Shown: positions 42,488 to 51,889 of the stretch, piece by piece
How positions within the stretch are numbered: the first letter of the stretch is position 1
Layout: every line of letters begins with the position of its first letter
Source of the DNA: Chitinispirillum alkaliphilum
Lineage (GTDB): Bacteria; Fibrobacterota; Chitinivibrionia; Chitinivibrionales; Chitinispirillaceae
DNA: 64,000 nucleotides
Assembly: GCA_001045525.1 (NCBI GenBank)
Contig: LDWW01000001.1
Location: forward strand, 186,001-250,000
Direction: 5' to 3'
Position numbers and translations under genes: made by a program
Notes under the pieces: generated by a model
The model's database searches: none
Seen by the model: the letters and a program-made list of their open reading frames with translations, nothing else
What the model was told of the DNA's origin: nothing

Positions 42488-42554
42488 TTTGATTCTCCTT
42501 GGGTTTAAAAGAGAACAGGATTCCCATTGGTTATTTGTCTAAATGAGAAGATAA

Positions 42555-42576
42555 ATAGTGATCACCCGATCACTAT
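42555..42576. promoter_or_regulatory. Perfect dyad between divergent genes, candidate operator
   Basis: Arms ATAGTGATC and GATCACTAT (9 bp each, perfect) around ACCC. It lies about 70 bases from the start of the leftward beta-helix gene and 80-100 bases before the ilv leader peptide. That place and symmetry suit a dimeric repressor or activator site. A transcribed hairpin is the alternative. Confidence 0.4.
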
Positions 42577-42656
42577 CATGAATATAAGGTAAGTGGGGAT
42601 GAAAATGTTGAAAAAAACGACTTGACTAAAAGGTTGGAGGAATTTAGTTTATAAAG

Positions 42657-42758
42657 ATGAAAACAAAAAAGCTAGTAATCAGACTGATTCTAAATGTCAT
42701 TGACGTGGTCAATGATAGTGTGATTATTGTTCCCCAAATGAGGGAAACGGGTATTTAG
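42657..42758 (+). CDS. ilvL: Branched-chain amino acid-rich leader peptide (attenuator)
   Basis: A 33-codon frame from ATG to TAG, too short for ordinary gene finding. Fifteen of 33 residues are Leu, Ile or Val, including the run DSVIIVP just before the antiterminator segment. An in-frame TAG at 42645 limits extension upstream. The nearest good ribosome-binding site, GGAGG at 42636-42640, is rather far (16 bases), so initiation strength is uncertain. Its role would be to sense charged branched-chain tRNAs: a ribosome stalled at these codons leaves 42741-42751 free to disrupt the terminator. The gene symbol follows the functional analogue in Escherichia coli; there is no claim of sequence homology. 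Confidence 0.82.
   Translation: MKTKKLVIRLILNVIDVVNDSVIIVPQMRETGI
42697..42715 (+). promoter_or_regulatory. Hairpin within the leader-peptide coding region
   Basis: TCATTGAC (42697-42704) pairs perfectly with GTCAATGA (42708-42715) over a 3-nt loop. In attenuators an early hairpin of this kind pauses RNA polymerase so that the ribosome can catch up; here that role is inferred from position. Confidence 0.5.
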
Positions 42759-42794
42759 GATCAGATCCAGATTACAAAAGAGGCCCGTTTCCCT
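42741..42794 (+). promoter_or_regulatory. Antiterminator pairing of the ilv attenuator
   Basis: AGGGAAACGGG (42741-42751, codons 29-32 of the leader peptide) is exactly complementary over 11 bases to CCCGTTTCCCT (42784-42794), which is the upper 5' arm and loop of the terminator hairpin. The two structures cannot coexist. A ribosome finishing the leader peptide at TAG 42756-42758 would cover the first segment and favour termination. Confidence 0.8.
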
Positions 42795-42819
42795 TAGGGG
42801 GAGACGGGCCTCTTTTGTA
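42773..42819 (+). terminator. Intrinsic terminator of the ilv attenuator
   Basis: Perfect 16-bp stem (42773-42788 with 42804-42819) capped by a C-rich/G-rich loop that can add three pairs. The GC-rich core is followed by TCTTTTGTATTTATAT. It lies 113 bases before the ilvB start, so as a plain terminator it would block the operon; it makes sense only as a conditional one. Confidence 0.85.
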
Positions 42820-42931
42820 TTTATATATATGTGATTTCTTGATTTGCAACCAAACAGGTGGTATTTTAAACTGTTTTAATTTCGATAATTGTCCTTGCTT
42901 TGTTGGCAGGGGTAAATTTCTGGGGGTACTT

Positions 42932-44656
42932 TTGAAAAAAACAGGTGCGCAGATTGTCGTCGATGCTTTAGTTAAAGAGGGTGTAGAGGTTTTGTTTGGT
43001 TACCCCGGTGGGGTCGTAATCCCTATTTTCGACGTCTTGTATGAAACCAAGGATATCAAATTCATATTAACCCGTCATGAACAGGCTGCTGCTCACGCTG
43101 CTGATGGTTATGCCCGTGCCACCGGACGTCCCGGGGTTTGTCTGGCTACTTCAGGGCCGGGGGCAACGAATATAATGACAGGTTTGGCAACCGCTTATTT
43201 GGATTCAATTCCGATGGTTGCAATTACCGGTCAGGTGGCTTCACCCCTTTTGGGAACTGATGCTTTTCAGGAGGCCGATATCGTAGGGATGAGCCGCCCT
43301 ATTACAAAACATAATTTTCTGGTAAAATCAGTGGAAGAACTGCCGCTGATTTTAAAGCAGGCCTTTCATATCGCAACTACAGGAAGACCGGGGCCGGTTC
43401 TGGTTGATATACCTGCTGATGTTTCTAAGGGGGCTACGGAGAATTTCTCTTATCCAGAAAGCGTTTCGATAAGAAGTTACAAGCCTAATGTACAGGGGCA
43501 TATAAAACAGATAGAAAAGGCTGCTGAATTTATCTCAAATGCCAAAAAGCCCATTATCTTTGCTGGGGGAGGTATAATTCACTCCGGGGCTCATGAAGAG
43601 CTGCGGGTGTTTGCTGAAACAACAAATATTCCTGTTACCACCTCCTTTATGGGGCTGGGAGGCTTTCCCGGAGATCATCCGCTTTTTATGGGTATGCCTG
43701 GAATGCATGGGTCAAAATGCGCTAACTTCGCACTCCAGGAATGCGATCTTATAATCTCTATCGGAGCCCGCTTTGATGACAGGGTGACCGGTTATGTAAA
43801 AGAGTTTGCGCCGAATGCATCCATCATCCATATGGATATAGATCCTGCAGCCATATCAAAAATCATAAAAGTTGATGTGCCGGTTGTTGGAGATGCCAAA
43901 AATATTCTTAAGTCTCTGAACAAGATTGTTAAGCCCAGAGAAACTGATTCCTGGAATGATAAGATCAACACATGGAAAGGTGAGAAGCTCTTTACATATA
44001 CTCAGTCTGACACCGTGATCAAACCCCAGTATGTGGTTGAAAAACTCAGCGAGATAACAAAGGGTGAAGCTCTTATCGCAACGGAGGTGGGGCAGAATCA
44101 GATGTGGACGGCTCAGTACTACAAATTCAGAAAACCAAGAACCCTTATTTCTTCAGGGGGACTGGGGACAATGGGATTTGGAATGCCTGCGGCCATGGGA
44201 GCGGCTCTGACTAACCCCGGGGTTCCGGTTATTGATGTTGCAGGTGATGGCTCGATTCAGATGAATATTCAGGAACTTGCTACCTTGTCGGTAAACAAAA
44301 TACCTGTTAAGATAGTTATTCTCAACAATTCTTACCTTGGTATGGTTCGTCAATGGCAGCAGATCTTCTTTGATAAACGCTACAGCGGAACATGTCTGAG
44401 GGGTGGAGCGCTTTGCAATGAGTGTGTCGGTCCTCAGAATTGTCAAAAGGTATATTTGCCAGATTTTGTTAAATTAGCAGAAAGTTACGAGGTTCCGGCT
44501 TTCCGTACAGATAAAGTTTCTGAAATTGAAACGGTTCTCAATAAGGGACTTGAGGTGGATGGTCCTGCACTGATGGAGTTTATTGTGTCTCAGGAGGAGA
44601 ATGTGTTTCCTATGGTGCCGGCCGGAAAACCAATCCATGAGATTCTGGAGGGATAA
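42932..44656 (+). CDS. ilvB: Acetolactate synthase large (catalytic) subunit
   Basis: ThDP- and FAD-dependent enzyme of valine, leucine and isoleucine synthesis: joins pyruvate to pyruvate or 2-oxobutyrate. About 574 residues. The catalytic Glu lies in RHEQAAAHAADGYARATG, and the ThDP-Mg motif is GDGSIQMN followed by VILNN. The frame is open from 42815, but that would put the start inside the terminator. Conserved sequence begins at LLKKTGAQIVVDAL, so I choose TTG at 42932, with GGGGGT five bases upstream. Unusual: four cysteines (488, 495, 498, 504) in an insertion after YSGT near the C-terminus. Its stop abuts the ilvN start. Confidence 0.95.
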   Translation: MKKTGAQIVVDALVKEGVEVLFGYPGGVVIPIFDVLYETKDIKFILTRHEQAAAHAADGYARATGRPGVCLATSGPGATNIMTGLATAYLDSIPMVAITGQVASPLLGTDAFQEADIVGMSRPITKHNFLVKSVEELPLILKQAFHIATTGRPGPVLVDIPADVSKGATENFSYPESVSIRSYKPNVQGHIKQIEKAAEFISNAKKPIIFAGGGIIHSGAHEELRVFAETTNIPVTTSFMGLGGFPGDHPLFMGMPGMHGSKCANFALQECDLIISIGARFDDRVTGYVKEFAPNASIIHMDIDPAAISKIIKVDVPVVGDAKNILKSLNKIVKPRETDSWNDKINTWKGEKLFTYTQSDTVIKPQYVVEKLSEITKGEALIATEVGQNQMWTAQYYKFRKPRTLISSGGLGTMGFGMPAAMGAALTNPGVPVIDVAGDGSIQMNIQELATLSVNKIPVKIVILNNSYLGMVRQWQQIFFDKRYSGTCLRGGALCNECVGPQNCQKVYLPDFVKLAESYEVPAFRTDKVSEIETVLNKGLEVDGPALMEFIVSQEENVFPMVPAGKPIHEILEG

Positions 44657-45139
44657 ATGAATACACATACTATTTCTATACTTGCTGAAAACCATAGCGG
44701 TTCACTATCCAGAATTGCGGGATTGTTCTCAAGCAGAGGGTATAATATTTCCACTCTTACTGTGGCCGAAACTGATGATCCCACAATTTCAAGAATGACT
44801 ATCGTTGTTCAGGGTGATGAGGGAATACTTGAGCAGATTGTAAAACAGCTCAATAAACTCATCGATGTTATCAAAGTCGTTGACTTTAAGGATGAACCGA
44901 TTCTGGAAAGAGAGCTGTTGCTTGTAAGAGTTGATGCATCTAAGTCAAACAGACATGAAATTGTAGAGGTTGCAAATCTTTTTAAGGCAAAAGTCGCGGC
45001 TGTATCTGCTGCATCTGTTACATTGGAACTTACAGGAGAACGGCAGAGAATCGATGACTTTACAATGATGCTAAAACCCTACGGCATAAAGGAACTTGTG
45101 CGATCAGGGGCTATTGCAATTGGACAATTGAGAAAATAA
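44657..45139 (+). CDS. ilvN: Acetolactate synthase small (regulatory) subunit
   Basis: A 160-residue regulatory partner of IlvB. The N-terminal ACT domain (about residues 1-75) has NHSGSLSRIAGLFSSRGYNI, the valine-binding type motif, and the C-terminal ferredoxin-like domain has the expected length. It confers feedback inhibition by valine and raises catalytic activity. The ATG follows the ilvB stop without a gap, so translation is coupled and the subunits are made in step. Confidence 0.95.
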   Translation: MNTHTISILAENHSGSLSRIAGLFSSRGYNISTLTVAETDDPTISRMTIVVQGDEGILEQIVKQLNKLIDVIKVVDFKDEPILERELLLVRVDASKSNRHEIVEVANLFKAKVAAVSAASVTLELTGERQRIDDFTMMLKPYGIKELVRSGAIAIGQLRK

Positions 45140-45221: not shown

Positions 45222-46322
45222 ATGGCAGTTATCGATTTTGGCGGCGTAAAAGAAGATGTTATTACCCGCAAAGAGTTTACCGTGGCAAAAGCCAGAAGAA
45301 TCCTTAAAAATGAAACCATTGCTGTTATCGGTTACGGCGTTCAGGGACCTGCTCAGGCACTGAACCTCAAAGACAACGGTTTCAATGTGATTATCGGCCA
45401 GTCAAAAAAGTTCAAAAAAGACTGGGAAAGAGCCCGTAAAGATGGATGGGTACCAGGGAAAACTCTTTTCGATGTCGATGAGGCTGTTCAAAAGGGTACT
45501 ATCATTAAAATTTTAGTTTCTGATGCTGCTCAGAGAATTGTATGGCCAACTGTTAAGAAGAATCTAAAAGAGGGTGATGCGCTCTATTTCTCTCACGGAT
45601 TCTCAATCGTATACAAAGAACAGACTAAGGTTGTTCCACCTGAAAATGTGGATGTTATCCTGGTCGCACCTAAGGGAAGCGGTACATCGGTAAGAAGAAA
45701 TTTTCTCTCAGGCGCAGGTATCAACTCAAGTTATGCAATTTTTCAGGACTTCACAGGCCGTGCAGCCGAACGCTGCCTGGCTCTTGGTATAGGTGTGGGG
45801 TCTGGGTACCTTTTCCCAACCACCTTTGAAAAGGAAGTCTACAGTGATCTTACCGGTGAACGTGGTGTTCTTATGGGGGCTCTTGCCGGTATGATGGAAG
45901 CACAGTATCAGGTTCTTCGCAAAAACGGCCACAGCCCAAGTGAGGCATTCAACGAAACTGTCGAAGAGCTTACTCAGAGCCTTATTCGTCTCGTTGACGA
46001 AAATGGAATGGACTGGATGTACTCAAACTGCTCTGCAACTGCTCAGAGAGGTGCATTGGACTGGAAACCAAAGTTCAAAAAAGCCACTCAACCCGTATTT
46101 GAAGAACTTTACAAGTCTGTCAAGAGCGGAAAAGAAACAAGGCGTGTTATCACCGCATGTGGAAGAGCCGATTACCAGGAACGTCTGGACAAGGAACTCT
46201 CAAAACTGGGCGAGTCTGAAATGTGGAAAACCGGTAAAGCGGTACGTGACCTCAGACCAAAACAGAAAGCCCGTCAGATCACCAAGGCTACAAAGGGTGT
46301 GAGAGGAAGAGCAGGTAACTGA
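45222..46322 (+). CDS. ilvC: Ketol-acid reductoisomerase
   Basis: Second step of valine and isoleucine synthesis: NADPH- and Mg-dependent alkyl migration and reduction of acetolactate or acetohydroxybutyrate. At 366 residues it is a class I-like enzyme, a little longer than the usual 330. The nucleotide loop is GYGVQGPAQALNL (about residues 38-50), and the metal-binding acidic motif is DLTGERGVLMG (D-x3-E). The C-terminal tail is Lys/Arg-rich. AAGGAG precedes the ATG. It lies 82 bases after ilvN. Confidence 0.95.
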   Translation: MAVIDFGGVKEDVITRKEFTVAKARRILKNETIAVIGYGVQGPAQALNLKDNGFNVIIGQSKKFKKDWERARKDGWVPGKTLFDVDEAVQKGTIIKILVSDAAQRIVWPTVKKNLKEGDALYFSHGFSIVYKEQTKVVPPENVDVILVAPKGSGTSVRRNFLSGAGINSSYAIFQDFTGRAAERCLALGIGVGSGYLFPTTFEKEVYSDLTGERGVLMGALAGMMEAQYQVLRKNGHSPSEAFNETVEELTQSLIRLVDENGMDWMYSNCSATAQRGALDWKPKFKKATQPVFEELYKSVKSGKETRRVITACGRADYQERLDKELSKLGESEMWKTGKAVRDLRPKQKARQITKATKGVRGRAGN

Positions 46323-46408: not shown

Positions 46409-47968
46409 ATGAAGATCGATAACGTTTTTATCTTTGATACTACTTTGCGGGATGGAGAGCAGGCCTTACCCTCAAGCCTTTCTGTTGAACAGAAACTTAG
46501 GATTGCAAAACAGCTTGCCCGTCTGAACGTAGACGGTATTGAAGCGGGGTTCCCGGTTTCTTCACCTGGGGATTTTGAGTCTGTTCACACCATCGCTTCC
46601 CAGGTAAAGGGACCTGTGATTTGCGGGCTTGCGCGTACTGTTGAGAAGGATATCCTCTCATGTGCAAAAGCTGTGAAGCCTGCAGAGCGTCCACGGATAC
46701 ATACCTTCATAGGTACTTCTGCAATCCATACGGAAAAAAAGCTGAGAAAATCGCAGGACAGCATTTTGCAGCTTGTTTATGACAGTGTCAAACTGGCAAG
46801 AAAACACTGTGGTGATGTGGAATTTTCGGCAGAAGACGCTGGCAGAACCGGAACTGATTACCTGTGCAGGGTTGTGGAAACTGCCATAAAAGCGGGAGCG
46901 TCTACAATAAATATTCCAGACACAGTCGGCTATACTGCACCGGAACATTTCGCCTCAATAATTGATGAGCTCTTCAATCGGGTTCCCAATATCGACAAAG
47001 CTGTGATTTCTGTGCATTGTCATGATGACCTTGGTATGTCAACCGCAAACTCACTGACCGCTATCGCTCATGGTGCAAGACAGGTTGAGTGCACTATAAA
47101 CGGTATCGGGGAGAGGGCGGGTAATGCCGCTCTTGAGGAAATCGTAATGGCCATAAAGGTCAGAAAAGATATCTTTAAGGTTTCCACAAATGTGGACGCA
47201 AAAGAACTGATGCGTACCAGTAAACTCGTACGGGATGTGTGCAGTATGCCCGTTCAGCCTAATAAGGCCATTGTGGGAAGTAATGCCTTTGCACACTCAT
47301 CTGGTATTCATCAAGATGGTGTCCTTAAGGCCAAAAAAACCTATGAAATCATGACCCCTCAGTCTGTCGGGCTCAAAGATAACAAAATGAATCTTACCGG
47401 ACGCTCCGGCAGCCATATGGTCAAATCAAGGCTACTCAGCCTGGGCTACAGTGAAGCTGATGTGGATATGCCTAAGTTTTATGATAAGTTCAAGGCGCTC
47501 GCTGATAAAAAGGGCACAGTTTACGATGATGATCTGATTACGTTGATGGAATCAAGAAGCAGTGCTGATCTTGAAGATAAATATATACTTGAATATATCA
47601 ATGTATCCAGCGGAAAGGGTACTGTCCCTACTGCAACCGTCAAACTCAGAATCAATGGCAAGCTTTTGCAGGAAGCGGCCTGTGGAGATGGTGCAGTTGA
47701 TGCTGCCACCAAGGCTATTGACCGAATTGTGGGGTTTGATATAAAAATCGACAACTTTCAGATTGAAGCAGTCACTGAGGGAAGGGAAGCTTTGGGTAAA
47801 GTAACCATAACGGTCAAAGCCCCTGAAGGTTTCTTTGTGGGAAAAGCAAACAGTACCGACATCGTAGAGGCTTCAGCAATGGCCTACATGGATGCGGTGA
47901 ATAAAATTGCAAGAATAAAAATGTTCAAAAAAAATCCCAAAACTAAAAAGTTGCAGGAACATCTCTAA
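46409..47968 (+). CDS. leuA: 2-isopropylmalate synthase
   Basis: First committed step of leucine synthesis: condenses acetyl-CoA with 2-oxoisovalerate. At 519 residues it has full length. The TIM-barrel part opens with FDTTLRDGEQALP (8-20), and the metal-binding HCHDDLGMS lies near residue 210, followed by GIGERAGNAALEE and HSSGIHQDGVLK. The C-terminal LeuA regulatory domain (about 390-515), which binds leucine for feedback inhibition, is present. Fourth gene of the operon. Confidence 0.95.
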   Translation: MKIDNVFIFDTTLRDGEQALPSSLSVEQKLRIAKQLARLNVDGIEAGFPVSSPGDFESVHTIASQVKGPVICGLARTVEKDILSCAKAVKPAERPRIHTFIGTSAIHTEKKLRKSQDSILQLVYDSVKLARKHCGDVEFSAEDAGRTGTDYLCRVVETAIKAGASTINIPDTVGYTAPEHFASIIDELFNRVPNIDKAVISVHCHDDLGMSTANSLTAIAHGARQVECTINGIGERAGNAALEEIVMAIKVRKDIFKVSTNVDAKELMRTSKLVRDVCSMPVQPNKAIVGSNAFAHSSGIHQDGVLKAKKTYEIMTPQSVGLKDNKMNLTGRSGSHMVKSRLLSLGYSEADVDMPKFYDKFKALADKKGTVYDDDLITLMESRSSADLEDKYILEYINVSSGKGTVPTATVKLRINGKLLQEAACGDGAVDAATKAIDRIVGFDIKIDNFQIEAVTEGREALGKVTITVKAPEGFFVGKANSTDIVEASAMAYMDAVNKIARIKMFKKNPKTKKLQEHL

Positions 47969-48017: not shown

Positions 48018-49079
48018 ATGAAAACGTATAATATTGCTCTCATGCCGGGGGATGGAACAGGACCTGAGGTTCTCAGGGAAGGTGTTAAAGTTCTGGATGC
48101 TGCTTGTGCTAAACATGATATCAAGTTGAACTATACCGAATATGATTTCGGTGGCGAAAGATATAAAAAAACAGGGGAAACCCTTTCGGACTCCGGAATC
48201 GAGGAGTTAAGCAAACATGATTCAATTTTCCTTGGTGCAATCGGACATCCGGATGTAAAGCCCGGCGTTCTTGAACTTGGAATTTTACTTAAACTGAGAT
48301 TCGCACTCGATCAGTACATTAACTTAAGACCTGTCAAACTTTACCCCAATGTGGAAACTCCACTGAAAGATAAGGGACCTGAACATATTGATTTCGTAGT
48401 GGTGCGTGAAAACTCAGGCGGTATCTATACCGGCATGGGTGGGGTTACAATGAAAGGTACTCAGAATGAGATCGCCACTCAGCTGATGTGTTACTCAAGG
48501 CCCGTGGTTGAGAGATGTATACGCTATGCCTACGATCTTACACGTAAACGTAACAAGAAAAAGCTCCTGACCCTGGTTCATAAATGTAATGTCCTTACAG
48601 ATGTTGGTGATCTGTGGGTTAGAACTCATCAGGAAGTAGGGGAAAAGGATTTTCAGGATATCAAACAGGATTACAACCATGTTGATGCATGCACTATGTG
48701 GATGGTGAAAAGCCCTGAGTTCTACGATGTAATTGTAACATCAAATCTTTTCGGTGACATTATTACCGATCTTGGTGCGATGATACAGGGTGGGATGGGT
48801 ATCGCTGCTGGTGGTAACATAAATCCTGAAGGTGTTTCGATGTTTGAGCCTATCGGTGGCAGTGCTCCTAAATACACCGGACAGAATATCATTAACCCAC
48901 TTGCTGCTATTTGCGCCGGTGCAATGATGCTTGAGACTCTTGGAGAAGCGGATGCTGCTGCTGATATAGATAAAGCCGTAACTGCAGCTCTTGAAACCGG
49001 GAAGATTAAGAGTCTCTCTGCTGGTCGTATGGGAATGAGTACGTCTGAAACCGGTGATTTTGTCGCTTCACTTCTTTAA
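48018..49079 (+). CDS. leuB: 3-isopropylmalate dehydrogenase
   Basis: NAD-dependent oxidative decarboxylase of 353 residues. [25 protein letters not shown] with the substrate-binding arginines, [11 protein letters not shown] and [13 protein letters not shown] (Mg-binding aspartates) are all present. In this operon it would act on 3-isopropylmalate for leucine and probably also on methylmalate from the citramalate route to isoleucine. The family overlaps with tartrate and homoisocitrate dehydrogenases, but the context decides. AAAAGGA precedes the ATG. Confidence 0.92.
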
Positions 49080-49191: not shown

Positions 49192-50817
49192 ATGAATGAT
49201 AATAAAAATCGAAAAATAGATCTATATGACACTACCCTGAGGGATGGAAATCAGGCACTTGGTATAAGTCTTTCACTAAATGACAAGCTTGATATTGCGG
49301 TGAAACTTAATGAGCTGGGTGTGAAATACATTGAGGGCGGCTGGCCAAACCCCACAAACACTATCGATACCGAATTTTATTCTCATGCTTCAAAGCTTAA
49401 TCTTACTGCCAAAATTGCTGCTTTTGGAAGTACCCGAAGACCAGGCAATGAGGTTAGCAAAGATCCTTTCATGGAAATGCTTGTATCGACTAAAGCTCCC
49501 GTTGCCACTATCTTTGGTAAATCATGGGATCTTCATGTGACACAGGTCATAAATACTACGCTTGAAGAAAATCTGGCGATGATTTACGATTCGGTACATT
49601 TCCTCAAAAAGCATATGGATGAAGTGATCTATGATGCGGAGCATTTCTTTGACGGGTACAAAAATAATCCCCGGCATGCTCTTGATACCCTTAAGGCCGC
49701 TGAGGATGGCGGGGCGGACTGCATTGTGTTGTGTGATACAAACGGTGGACTTCTCCCTGATGAATTTATCTCTATTTTTAAAGAGATCAAATCCAAAATC
49801 AACACCAAAATCGGAATCCATATGCACAATGATTCAGGGTGTGCCGAAGCGATGTCGTGCCTGGGTGTAATCGAGGGGGCTGATCATGTACAGGGTACTA
49901 TTAACGGACTTGGCGAAAGGTGTGGAAATGCAAATCTCTGCACAATCATTCCCAGTCTGCAGCTTAAAAGAGGGTTTGATCTGATCTCTGCGGATCAGCT
50001 TAAAAATCTTACATCCATTTCTGTCTATGTTGCAGAAGTGGCAAATGTTACACCCGACATCCGTAAACCTTATGTTGGTGAAGCCGCTTTTTCTCATAAG
50101 GCAGGGGCTCATGCCGATGGCGTGAGAAAGGTAAGGCACTCCTTTGAACATATATCACCCGAAATTGTTGGCAATAACAGATATTTCGTAGTATCTGATC
50201 AGGCCGGGTCAAGTACTATACTTGAGAAACTGGAGTTTATCAAGCCTGGTTTGGACAAAAAGGATCCCGACGTAAAAAAACTGCTGCTTAAAATCAAGGA
50301 ACTGGAGAGCGATGGGTATCAGTTTGAGGCTGCAGAAGGTTCTTTTGAGCTTATTGCAAGAGAGATCCTTGGGCAGTTCAAGGAACCTTTTCTGGTGAAA
50401 GGTTTCAGGGTGATCGAAGAGAAAAACGAGAATGGGCAGGTTTATTCCGAGGCTACCATAAAGGTACAGGAAGAGGATGTTTTTGAGCATACCGCAGCTG
50501 AGGGTGACGGGCCTGTGAATGCGTTGGATAACGCACTCAGAAAGGCTCTCATTAAATTTTATCCATCTCTCTCTGAAGTTAAACTTGAAGATTTCAAGGT
50601 GAGGGTTCTCGATGGACGGGATGGGACTGAGGCAAAGGTTCGGGTATTGATCGAGTCCACCGATATCTACGACAGATGGGGTACTGTGGGTGTCTCAACC
50701 AATATTATTGAAGCAGCATGGTTTGCTCTTATTGACAGTTTGAAATATAAGCTAATGAAGGATACTCTTAAAAACAGAGAAGACAAAACCCAGAACATCT
50801 CAACGGCTGCTCGTTAA
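49192..50817 (+). CDS. cimA: Citramalate synthase
   Basis: A 541-residue LeuA-like enzyme that condenses acetyl-CoA with pyruvate to citramalate, giving 2-oxobutyrate for isoleucine without threonine. The barrel opens with YDTTLRDGNQALGISLS. The CimA-type features are YIEGGWPNPTNT, FGSTRRPGN, the IYDAEHFFDGYK motif and HMHNDSGCAEA. A C-terminal regulatory domain (about residues 410-530) ends the protein, as in isoleucine-inhibited forms. These features separate it from the leuA product of the same operon. Confidence 0.93.
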   Translation: MNDNKNRKIDLYDTTLRDGNQALGISLSLNDKLDIAVKLNELGVKYIEGGWPNPTNTIDTEFYSHASKLNLTAKIAAFGSTRRPGNEVSKDPFMEMLVSTKAPVATIFGKSWDLHVTQVINTTLEENLAMIYDSVHFLKKHMDEVIYDAEHFFDGYKNNPRHALDTLKAAEDGGADCIVLCDTNGGLLPDEFISIFKEIKSKINTKIGIHMHNDSGCAEAMSCLGVIEGADHVQGTINGLGERCGNANLCTIIPSLQLKRGFDLISADQLKNLTSISVYVAEVANVTPDIRKPYVGEAAFSHKAGAHADGVRKVRHSFEHISPEIVGNNRYFVVSDQAGSSTILEKLEFIKPGLDKKDPDVKKLLLKIKELESDGYQFEAAEGSFELIAREILGQFKEPFLVKGFRVIEEKNENGQVYSEATIKVQEEDVFEHTAAEGDGPVNALDNALRKALIKFYPSLSEVKLEDFKVRVLDGRDGTEAKVRVLIESTDIYDRWGTVGVSTNIIEAAWFALIDSLKYKLMKDTLKNREDKTQNISTAAR

Positions 50818-50869: not shown

Positions 50870-51889
50870 ATGAAAAAAGATATCGATTGGCGTAATCTGG
50901 GCTTTCAGTACATGCAGACCGATTGCTATGTGACTGCAACTTATTCTGAAGGGTCCTGGAGTGAACTTAAGGTTTGTAACGAACCAAATATGAGTATCCA
51001 TATTGCAGCAACATGTCTGCACTACGGGCAGTCTTGTTTTGAAGGCCTCAAAGCGTTCAGTCGTCAGGATGGCTCGATTGCATTATTCAGACCGGAGGAA
51101 AACGCGGCGCGTCTGATAAATTCTGCAAAGCGAATCGCCATGGTGGCACCTCCTAAAGAACTCTTTGTACAGGCTGTAAAAAAGGTTGTGGAACTCAATA
51201 AAGACTGGGTGCCTCCATATGGAACCGGTGCATCATTTTATCTGCGGCCAATTTTGATCGGTACAGACCCTAAAGTAGGGTTACAACCTTCACAAAGCTA
51301 TATGTTTATCGTCATGGGTATGCCGGTTGGACCGTTTTATAAGAATGGGTTTTTCCCTGTCAGTGCCTGTGTTCAGGATGAATATGACAGAGCTGCTCCA
51401 AAAGGAGTAGGCAATGTAAAGGTTGCGGGTAATTATGCTGCCGGAATGTTAGGTGATATAGAAAGCAAGGCCGGGGGGTATTCAATAACCCTTTATCTTG
51501 ATTCCGCAACTCATCAGTATGTGGAAGAATTTGGAACATCTAACCTGATTGCAATCAAGCAGGGTAAAAAGTTTGTGACACCGCAATCAGAATCAATTCT
51601 ACCGTCCATCACAAACAGAAGTGTTCAGATAATAGCAAAAGATTTTGGACTCGATGTCGAATACAGACCTATACCTTTTGATGAATTGTCACAATTCACA
51701 GAGGTCGGGGCCTGTGGTACGGCTGCTGTGATCACTCCTGTCTACTCGATCACCAAGGGTGAAAAAGTGTTTACTTTTGGGCGGGAGGACAAGGCCGGTG
51801 AAACTTTGGAAAAACTCTACAGGGAAATGCAGGGTATTCAGTTCGGTGAAATAGAAGATCGTCACGGATGGATGAAACCGGTTTCCTGA
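50870..51889 (+). CDS. ilvE: Branched-chain amino acid aminotransferase
   Basis: Fold-type IV PLP enzyme of 339 residues that makes the last transamination for valine, leucine and isoleucine. The PLP lysine is Lys184 in GNVKVAGNYAA. FEGLKAFSRQDG, FYLRPILIG and EEFGTSNLIAIK are the expected family blocks. The length and pattern fit the eukaryotic-like type II group rather than the 308-residue enterobacterial form. Last gene of the operon, 52 bases after cimA, with a hairpin soon after its stop. Confidence 0.93.
   Translation: MKKDIDWRNLGFQYMQTDCYVTATYSEGSWSELKVCNEPNMSIHIAATCLHYGQSCFEGLKAFSRQDGSIALFRPEENAARLINSAKRIAMVAPPKELFVQAVKKVVELNKDWVPPYGTGASFYLRPILIGTDPKVGLQPSQSYMFIVMGMPVGPFYKNGFFPVSACVQDEYDRAAPKGVGNVKVAGNYAAGMLGDIESKAGGYSITLYLDSATHQYVEEFGTSNLIAIKQGKKFVTPQSESILPSITNRSVQIIAKDFGLDVEYRPIPFDELSQFTEVGACGTAAVITPVYSITKGEKVFTFGREDKAGETLEKLYREMQGIQFGEIEDRHGWMKPVS

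Follow-up and report, generated by a model that had tools for sequence, protein, structure and literature searches.

Evidence for a ribosome-mediated transcription attenuator in front of ilvB, conserved across a bacterial order

The window analysed here, a stretch of DNA of 64,000 nucleotides, carries an operon for branched-chain amino-acid synthesis. Sequence comparison makes us highly confident that transcription is attenuated ahead of its first gene, ilvB, by a ribosome-mediated device in which four RNA strands compete. Matched mutations have preserved this switch in 33 of 35 related genomes, which makes it very probable that a shortage of leucine, isoleucine or valine activates the pathway through it. 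A first-pass annotation of the window had proposed this kind of control, which is now supported by covariation among strands A, B and C, by the fixed position of the leader stop codon and by the presence of the element in those 33 genomes. The operon, on the plus strand like all features of the element, consists of ilvB, the large subunit of acetolactate synthase (42932-44656, TTG start, TIGR00118 over cut-off); ilvN/ilvH, its small subunit (44657-45139, TIGR00119); ilvC, ketol-acid reductoisomerase (45222-46322, TIGR00465); leuA, 2-isopropylmalate synthase (46409-47968, TIGR00973); a leuB-like 3-isopropylmalate dehydrogenase gene (48018-49079, NF002898 over cut-off); cimA, citramalate synthase of the isoleucine branch (49192-50817, TIGR00977); and ilvE, branched-chain aminotransferase (50870-51889, TIGR01123). 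Elsewhere in the window, positions 184-598 of the minus strand match the Rfam cspA thermoregulator above its gathering score.

The leader is a short open reading frame (ORF) enriched in codons for the amino acids of the pathway. It spans 42657-42758, with a TAG stop codon at 42756-42758 and no Shine-Dalgarno sequence, and reads MKTKKLVIRLILNVIDVVNDSVIIVPQMRETGI up to the stop. The frame described at first pass was reproduced here, with 33 codons of which 15 are Leu, Ile or Val. With eight window genes as background, the probability of at least 15 such residues in 33 is 0.004. The Leu/Ile/Val share is 43% in the leaders of the comparison set versus 23% in the window genes, and the pooled leaders hold 140 Leu, 130 Ile and 171 Val codons; with this composition the leader could plausibly respond to each of the three. 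In enterobacterial attenuators the rare Leu codon CUA serves as a control codon, for example in E. coli leuL. CTA makes up 28 of 127 leader Leu codons (22%) versus 15 of 1233 (1.2%) in the ilvB genes of the same genomes (p = 4e-20), as expected for a sensitive control codon. The last regulatory codon run in the window, V-I-I-V at 42720-42731, lies 9 nt from strand A, and roughly half of the 33 leaders show the same gap.

Strand A (42741-42751), the 5′ strand of the antiterminator or segment 2, lies just 5′ of the stop codon. The exact 11-base complementarity reported between AGGGAAACGGG in this strand and CCCGTTTCCCT at 42784-42794 was found again, and the duplex grows to 18 bases, with a score reached by 0 of 200 shuffles. 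The second stretch is strand B (segment 3), which is common to antiterminator and terminator. Its other partner, strand C (segment 4, 42797-42810), is the 3′ strand of an intrinsic terminator hairpin at 42773-42819, followed by a T-rich tract, that separates the leader ORF from the first structural gene. The position of this hairpin was correctly given before; its stem is longer than the 16 bp noted then, with 22 bp and a 3-base loop. The whole leader folds much more stably than its dinucleotide shuffles (z = -7.8, 0 of 200). Across the leader set the two alternatives are balanced in median energy, at -22.0 kcal/mol for A:B and -22.6 kcal/mol for the terminator. In the window the terminator, at -39.4 kcal/mol, is far stronger than A:B (-22 to -25), which means that antitermination there must be kinetic. 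A local protector, TTGTT.CCC at 42727-42735, pairs with 42742-42750; it is weak and not general. The hairpin noted earlier inside the ORF, at 42697-42715, does exist (8-9 bp). It was rejected as a conserved part of the attenuator, being found in the window's genus and g6 and not order-wide.

We compared 40 genomes of the window's order, 35 of which have an ilvB orthologue. Before ilvB, 33 of these 35 carry a Leu/Ile/Val-rich ORF, an antiterminator and a terminator in the same order, and share one plan: ORF, strand A at its end, spacer, B, loop, C and T-run. The sole exceptions are two genomes of family f7 (g17), which lack the leader, and the plan was not found upstream of ilvB in the phylum's other families examined (f8-f11). 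It is the recurrence of the plan in 33 genomes that exceeds chance. Covariation was counted, without fitting, after 25 leaders had been aligned with plain MAFFT. Strands A and B are paired in 95.0% of cells, with two-sided changes at 8 of 11 pairs and 22 such cells (shuffled mean 6.5, 0 of 500 shuffles); B and C are paired in 94.4%, with two-sided changes at 8 of 13 pairs and 32 such cells (shuffled mean 12.2, 0 of 500). The genomes are partly fragmented and, since they are related, counts are not independent events and shuffle counts are not probabilities under common ancestry. When the registers were slid by 1-3 columns, pairing fell to 35-67%, and when whole B strands were exchanged between species, the observed pairing was reached in 0 of 5000 trials for both duplexes. 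A table of 12 columns and 33 rows aligned by hand agrees, the MAFFT counts being the unbiased check. As examples of compensation, the A/B pair GGGAAACGGG/CCCGTTTCCC becomes GGGAGACGGG/CCCGTCTCCC in f3 and GGAGAAACAGGC/GCCTGTTTCTCC in g4; genus g10 has mismatches within A:B. Because A is coding and B and C are noncoding, codon constraint does not explain the covariation. Loss of the 11-bp pairing while the peptide drifts had been named as the pattern that would speak against attenuation. We looked for it and found the reverse: compensatory changes keep the pairing, and the peptide drifts yet stays rich in Leu, Ile and Val. Covariation thus maintains two structures, antiterminator and terminator, that both need strand B and exclude each other.

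The geometry of the leaders fits control by a ribosome. Counted from the final base of the stop codon, strand A takes up positions -17 to -6 in most of them, within the footprint of a terminating ribosome. The commonest distance from the end of the last Leu/Ile/Val codon to A is 9 nt, so that a ribosome halted on this codon would just leave A free. By this geometry, A would be covered by a ribosome at the stop codon and not by one halted on the control codons. The ORF, strands A, B and C with their covariation, the fixed stop position, the rare-codon use and the above-chance pairing of segment 1 come from sequence comparison; promoter use, start sites, ribosome stalling and the amino-acid response are inferred. 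In the proposed mechanism, RNA polymerase would start at a promoter, P1, at or beside the leader ATG, and the 33-codon leader would be translated from a nearly leaderless transcript. With charged Leu, Ile and Val tRNAs, the ribosome would reach the stop codon and its footprint would cover A, so that B:C would form and transcription end at 42819. If one of the three amino acids were short, the ribosome would halt on the regulatory codons 5′ of A and the emerging B would pair with A. This duplex would block the terminator, and the polymerase would continue into ilvB-ilvN-ilvC-leuA-leuB-cimA-ilvE. If the leader were not translated, segment 1 could keep A from B and the terminator would form by default.

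Segment 1, the candidate anti-antiterminator strand (42682-42695), would form a longer-range helix with 42753-42767, the outer portion of segment 2, which surrounds the stop codon. When leaders were folded without B, the 5′ part of the ORF repeatedly paired with A and the stop region. Taken in aggregate over the 33 leaders, which are not independent, the segment 1:2 duplex exceeds both codon-shuffled (mean z -1.43) and synonymous (-1.39) controls. We hold with moderate confidence that segment 2 has a conserved upstream partner, in a long-range helix that would act as an anti-antiterminator, and single genomes vary. In the window, the fold predicted without a ribosome and as far as the 3′ end of B prefers A:B to segment 1:2. 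This leaves the default-off state uncertain, and the role of segment 1 is the least certain part of the attenuator.

The promoter P1 is a predicted one, TTGACT-N17-TAGTTT at 42622-42650 (-35 box 42622-42627, -10 box 42645-42650), and ends 6 nt before the leader ATG. In 21 of 33 genomes, against 6% expected by shuffling, the best sigma70-like site is 4-9 nt 5′ of the leader ATG. Nearly all leaders of families f1 and f2 have 6-9 nt from the -10 box to the ATG and no Shine-Dalgarno sequence; f3, f5g15, f6 and f7 have a longer promoter-ATG gap, several of them with a Shine-Dalgarno-like stretch. The short distance from promoter to ATG and the lack of a Shine-Dalgarno sequence make it probable that, in the window's family, translation of the leader uses a leaderless or nearly leaderless mRNA. 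Upstream of P1, at 42554-42577 between the divergent genes, we also observed a 10-bp inverted repeat, ATAGTGATC-ACCC-GATCACTAT, a possible operator or minus-strand terminator.

Transcripts starting downstream of 42819 had been named as evidence that would count against the attenuator. Downstream of the terminator and ahead of ilvB there is indeed a conserved promoter-like sequence, P2 (TTGATT-N17-TATTTT, 42839-42867), shared by the window's family, f3 and f5 (most of f1, f3 and f5). It would not abolish the attenuator but make it one of two inputs. The idea that P2 is the genome's generic promoter motif was rejected, as the exact pattern has only 5 matches in the 4.4-Mb genome. A stretch like CTGTTTT or CTATTTT is conserved after the P2 -10 box, around the predicted transcription start, at 42868-42877 and in relatives. 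Because P2 lies 3′ of the terminator, some of the transcription of ilvB probably escapes the attenuator, and P2 could account for much of the ilvB mRNA. The P2 hexamers are nearly invariant, and ilvB is preceded by a Shine-Dalgarno sequence and a short 5′ UTR. From this one might argue that the attenuator works but P2 dominates, leaving little physiological effect on ilvB in the window's family. We consider this unlikely, since covariation and codon choice point to continuing selection on the attenuator in the same genomes; P2 probably gives a basal supply there, to which the attenuator would add an inducible share.

The strong conservation of P2 in the window's family could also mean that ilvB is transcribed from P2, and that P1 drives a separate leader RNA whose main action is in trans, either as a small leaderless mRNA or as a riboregulator. 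The unit from P1 to the terminator would yield a discrete RNA of about 163 nt, and rnTrpL/peTrpL of Sinorhizobium meliloti offers a precedent (PMC7298713). This is improbable in our view. P2 is absent in f2 and f7, which keep the leader and A:B:C (terminator-ilvB spacing is 24-62 nt in intact loci), so read-through is the only evident route to ilvB there; an RNA that always terminates would, moreover, give no reason to keep the antiterminator strand. A trans role could coexist with attenuation.

Elsewhere, ilvB genes have T-boxes or ppGpp riboswitches (PMC10272879), and a riboswitch or T-box might sense a metabolite or uncharged tRNA directly, with the ORF being secondary. The chance of this is very slight: no Rfam ilvB or leader family, T-box or ppGpp riboswitch scored over its gathering threshold in the window leader and 20 related loci, and conservation is limited to the ORF-stop-A-B-C plan, without a further aptamer-like block. 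Weak Rfam matches to Thr_leader, Pxr and rliE were discarded because they rest on the GC-rich terminator only. An ordinary terminator next to an accidental ORF, with no regulation, might be entertained for a single genome, where a 33-codon ORF and its complement could be chance (P about 0.004 from Leu/Ile/Val content alone), and is refuted almost beyond doubt by the three-strand covariation, the fixed stop position, the CTA enrichment and the presence in 33 of 35 genomes.

We also searched 168 genomes of the phylum with a covariance model of the ilvB leader. The strongest matches were all at ilvB leaders, and the weaker ones were mostly plain terminators, which were set aside (L169, L170, L172-L174, L176, L177, L179-L181, L184 and L185). 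No attenuator was found before the window genome's own ilvD, hisG, trpE-like and homoserine dehydrogenase genes. The DAHP synthase gene of this genome (G000:C2:207561-209000, minus strand, L175/L191) has two aromatic-rich leader ORFs in series, such as those ending in SYFYFWFFKTCKGLMAF and NAFEYFFFWYFSLSKMGG before the stop, each with its own antiterminator and terminator. Such tandem leaders occur in four genera of the family (L175/L191, L192, L193, L194), and in 8 of 8 the A:B pairing is better than nearly all shuffles (0-22 of 400). Salmonella mgtCBR is a known case of leader ORFs in tandem (PMC3641672), and our search of open-access papers found no aromatic tandem-leader case. In f11 (L178, G053), an Ile-rich leader, MKSTLAIRIIITPPGSGL, with antiterminator and terminator lies directly before cimA, with an A:B score reached by 0 of 400 shuffles. 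In f9 (L166, G041), a leader rich in branched-chain residues, MKYRIHSLVSLITVVLIVPQCRGARG, and a terminator precede ilvD of an ilvD-ilvB operon, where ilvB is 3′ of ilvD; taken by itself, the A:B match of this leader does not reach significance (34 of 400 shuffles). Leaders such as one ending in HAVWAIIPHGSKGAA precede an EamA-family transporter gene in f11 g28 (L167, L168, L182), with terminators and a promoter near the ATG. Before gltB in f2 (L171, G024) there is an Arg/Thr/Asn-rich leader, MNSLYLLIKPTRNTKRTRTVNGMRNWSGLL, with antiterminator and terminator. We give about an even chance that the phylum uses leader-peptide attenuation widely and mostly leaderless beyond ilvB, at ilvD, cimA, the EamA-type transporter gene, gltB and, in tandem, DAHP synthase. 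If so, the series arrangement at DAHP synthase would multiply two starvation-dependent gates.

Attenuators of this kind are known; the lineage is one in which they are apparently undescribed. The first-pass annotation knew of no report in the Fibrobacterota-like group, a phylum name of its own suggestion, and our literature search (open-access papers) likewise found none. The best-documented cases of ribosome-mediated attenuation come from Proteobacteria and Actinobacteria, the only two phyla that a 2010 survey named before adding Firmicutes. A well-covarying, order-wide case in another phylum makes the mechanism broader, and either older or repeatedly invented. The leader set offers a natural comparison of leaderless with Shine-Dalgarno-led leaders and of loci with and without a bypass promoter, and the attenuator allows a prediction of when an uncultured bacterium would sense a lack of branched-chain amino acids.

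Several known systems resemble this one in part. The enterobacterial ilvGMEDA, leu, trp and his attenuators follow the same logic, but here segment 1 lies early in the ORF, 5′ of the main regulatory codons and not overlapping them, and the leader lacks a Shine-Dalgarno sequence. The ilvB-OMG and ilvB (Leptospira) motifs are ilvB-associated uORF motifs, proposed as attenuators in other phyla (PMC10272879); Rfam scans, with a set of models that may not include these motifs, gave no match to them here, and also none in 19 Omnitrophota and other loci. In S. meliloti trpL the leader ORF begins at the first base of the transcript (PMC7298713), as is predicted here, but that system serves trp, not ilv, and its trans role has no shown counterpart. 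Together with C. glutamicum ilvBNC and Streptomyces ilvL, it is a precedent for leaderless leaders. Mycobacterium tuberculosis ilvB1NC shares a uORF rich in branched-chain residues, a stop-codon ribosome that covers the antiterminator and a mutually exclusive terminator (PMC13236596), and differs in its leader of about 166 nt, its phylum and its unrelated sequence. The closest in design is the ilvBNC attenuator of Corynebacterium glutamicum (leader IlvL, ilvB-II motif), with a Leu/Ile/Val-rich leader before ilvB and anti-antiterminator, antiterminator and terminator hairpins; its transcription starts one nucleotide from the leader start codon, making it leaderless, and the operon has further promoters (PMC11857589; PMC10272879). 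Its leader has 15 codons, MTIIRLVVVTARRLP, whereas the one described here has 33 and ends in R-E-T-G-I. The ilvB-II motif was described from Corynebacterium. The operon of the window has P2 after the terminator and before ilvB, and includes leuA, leuB, cimA and ilvE as well.
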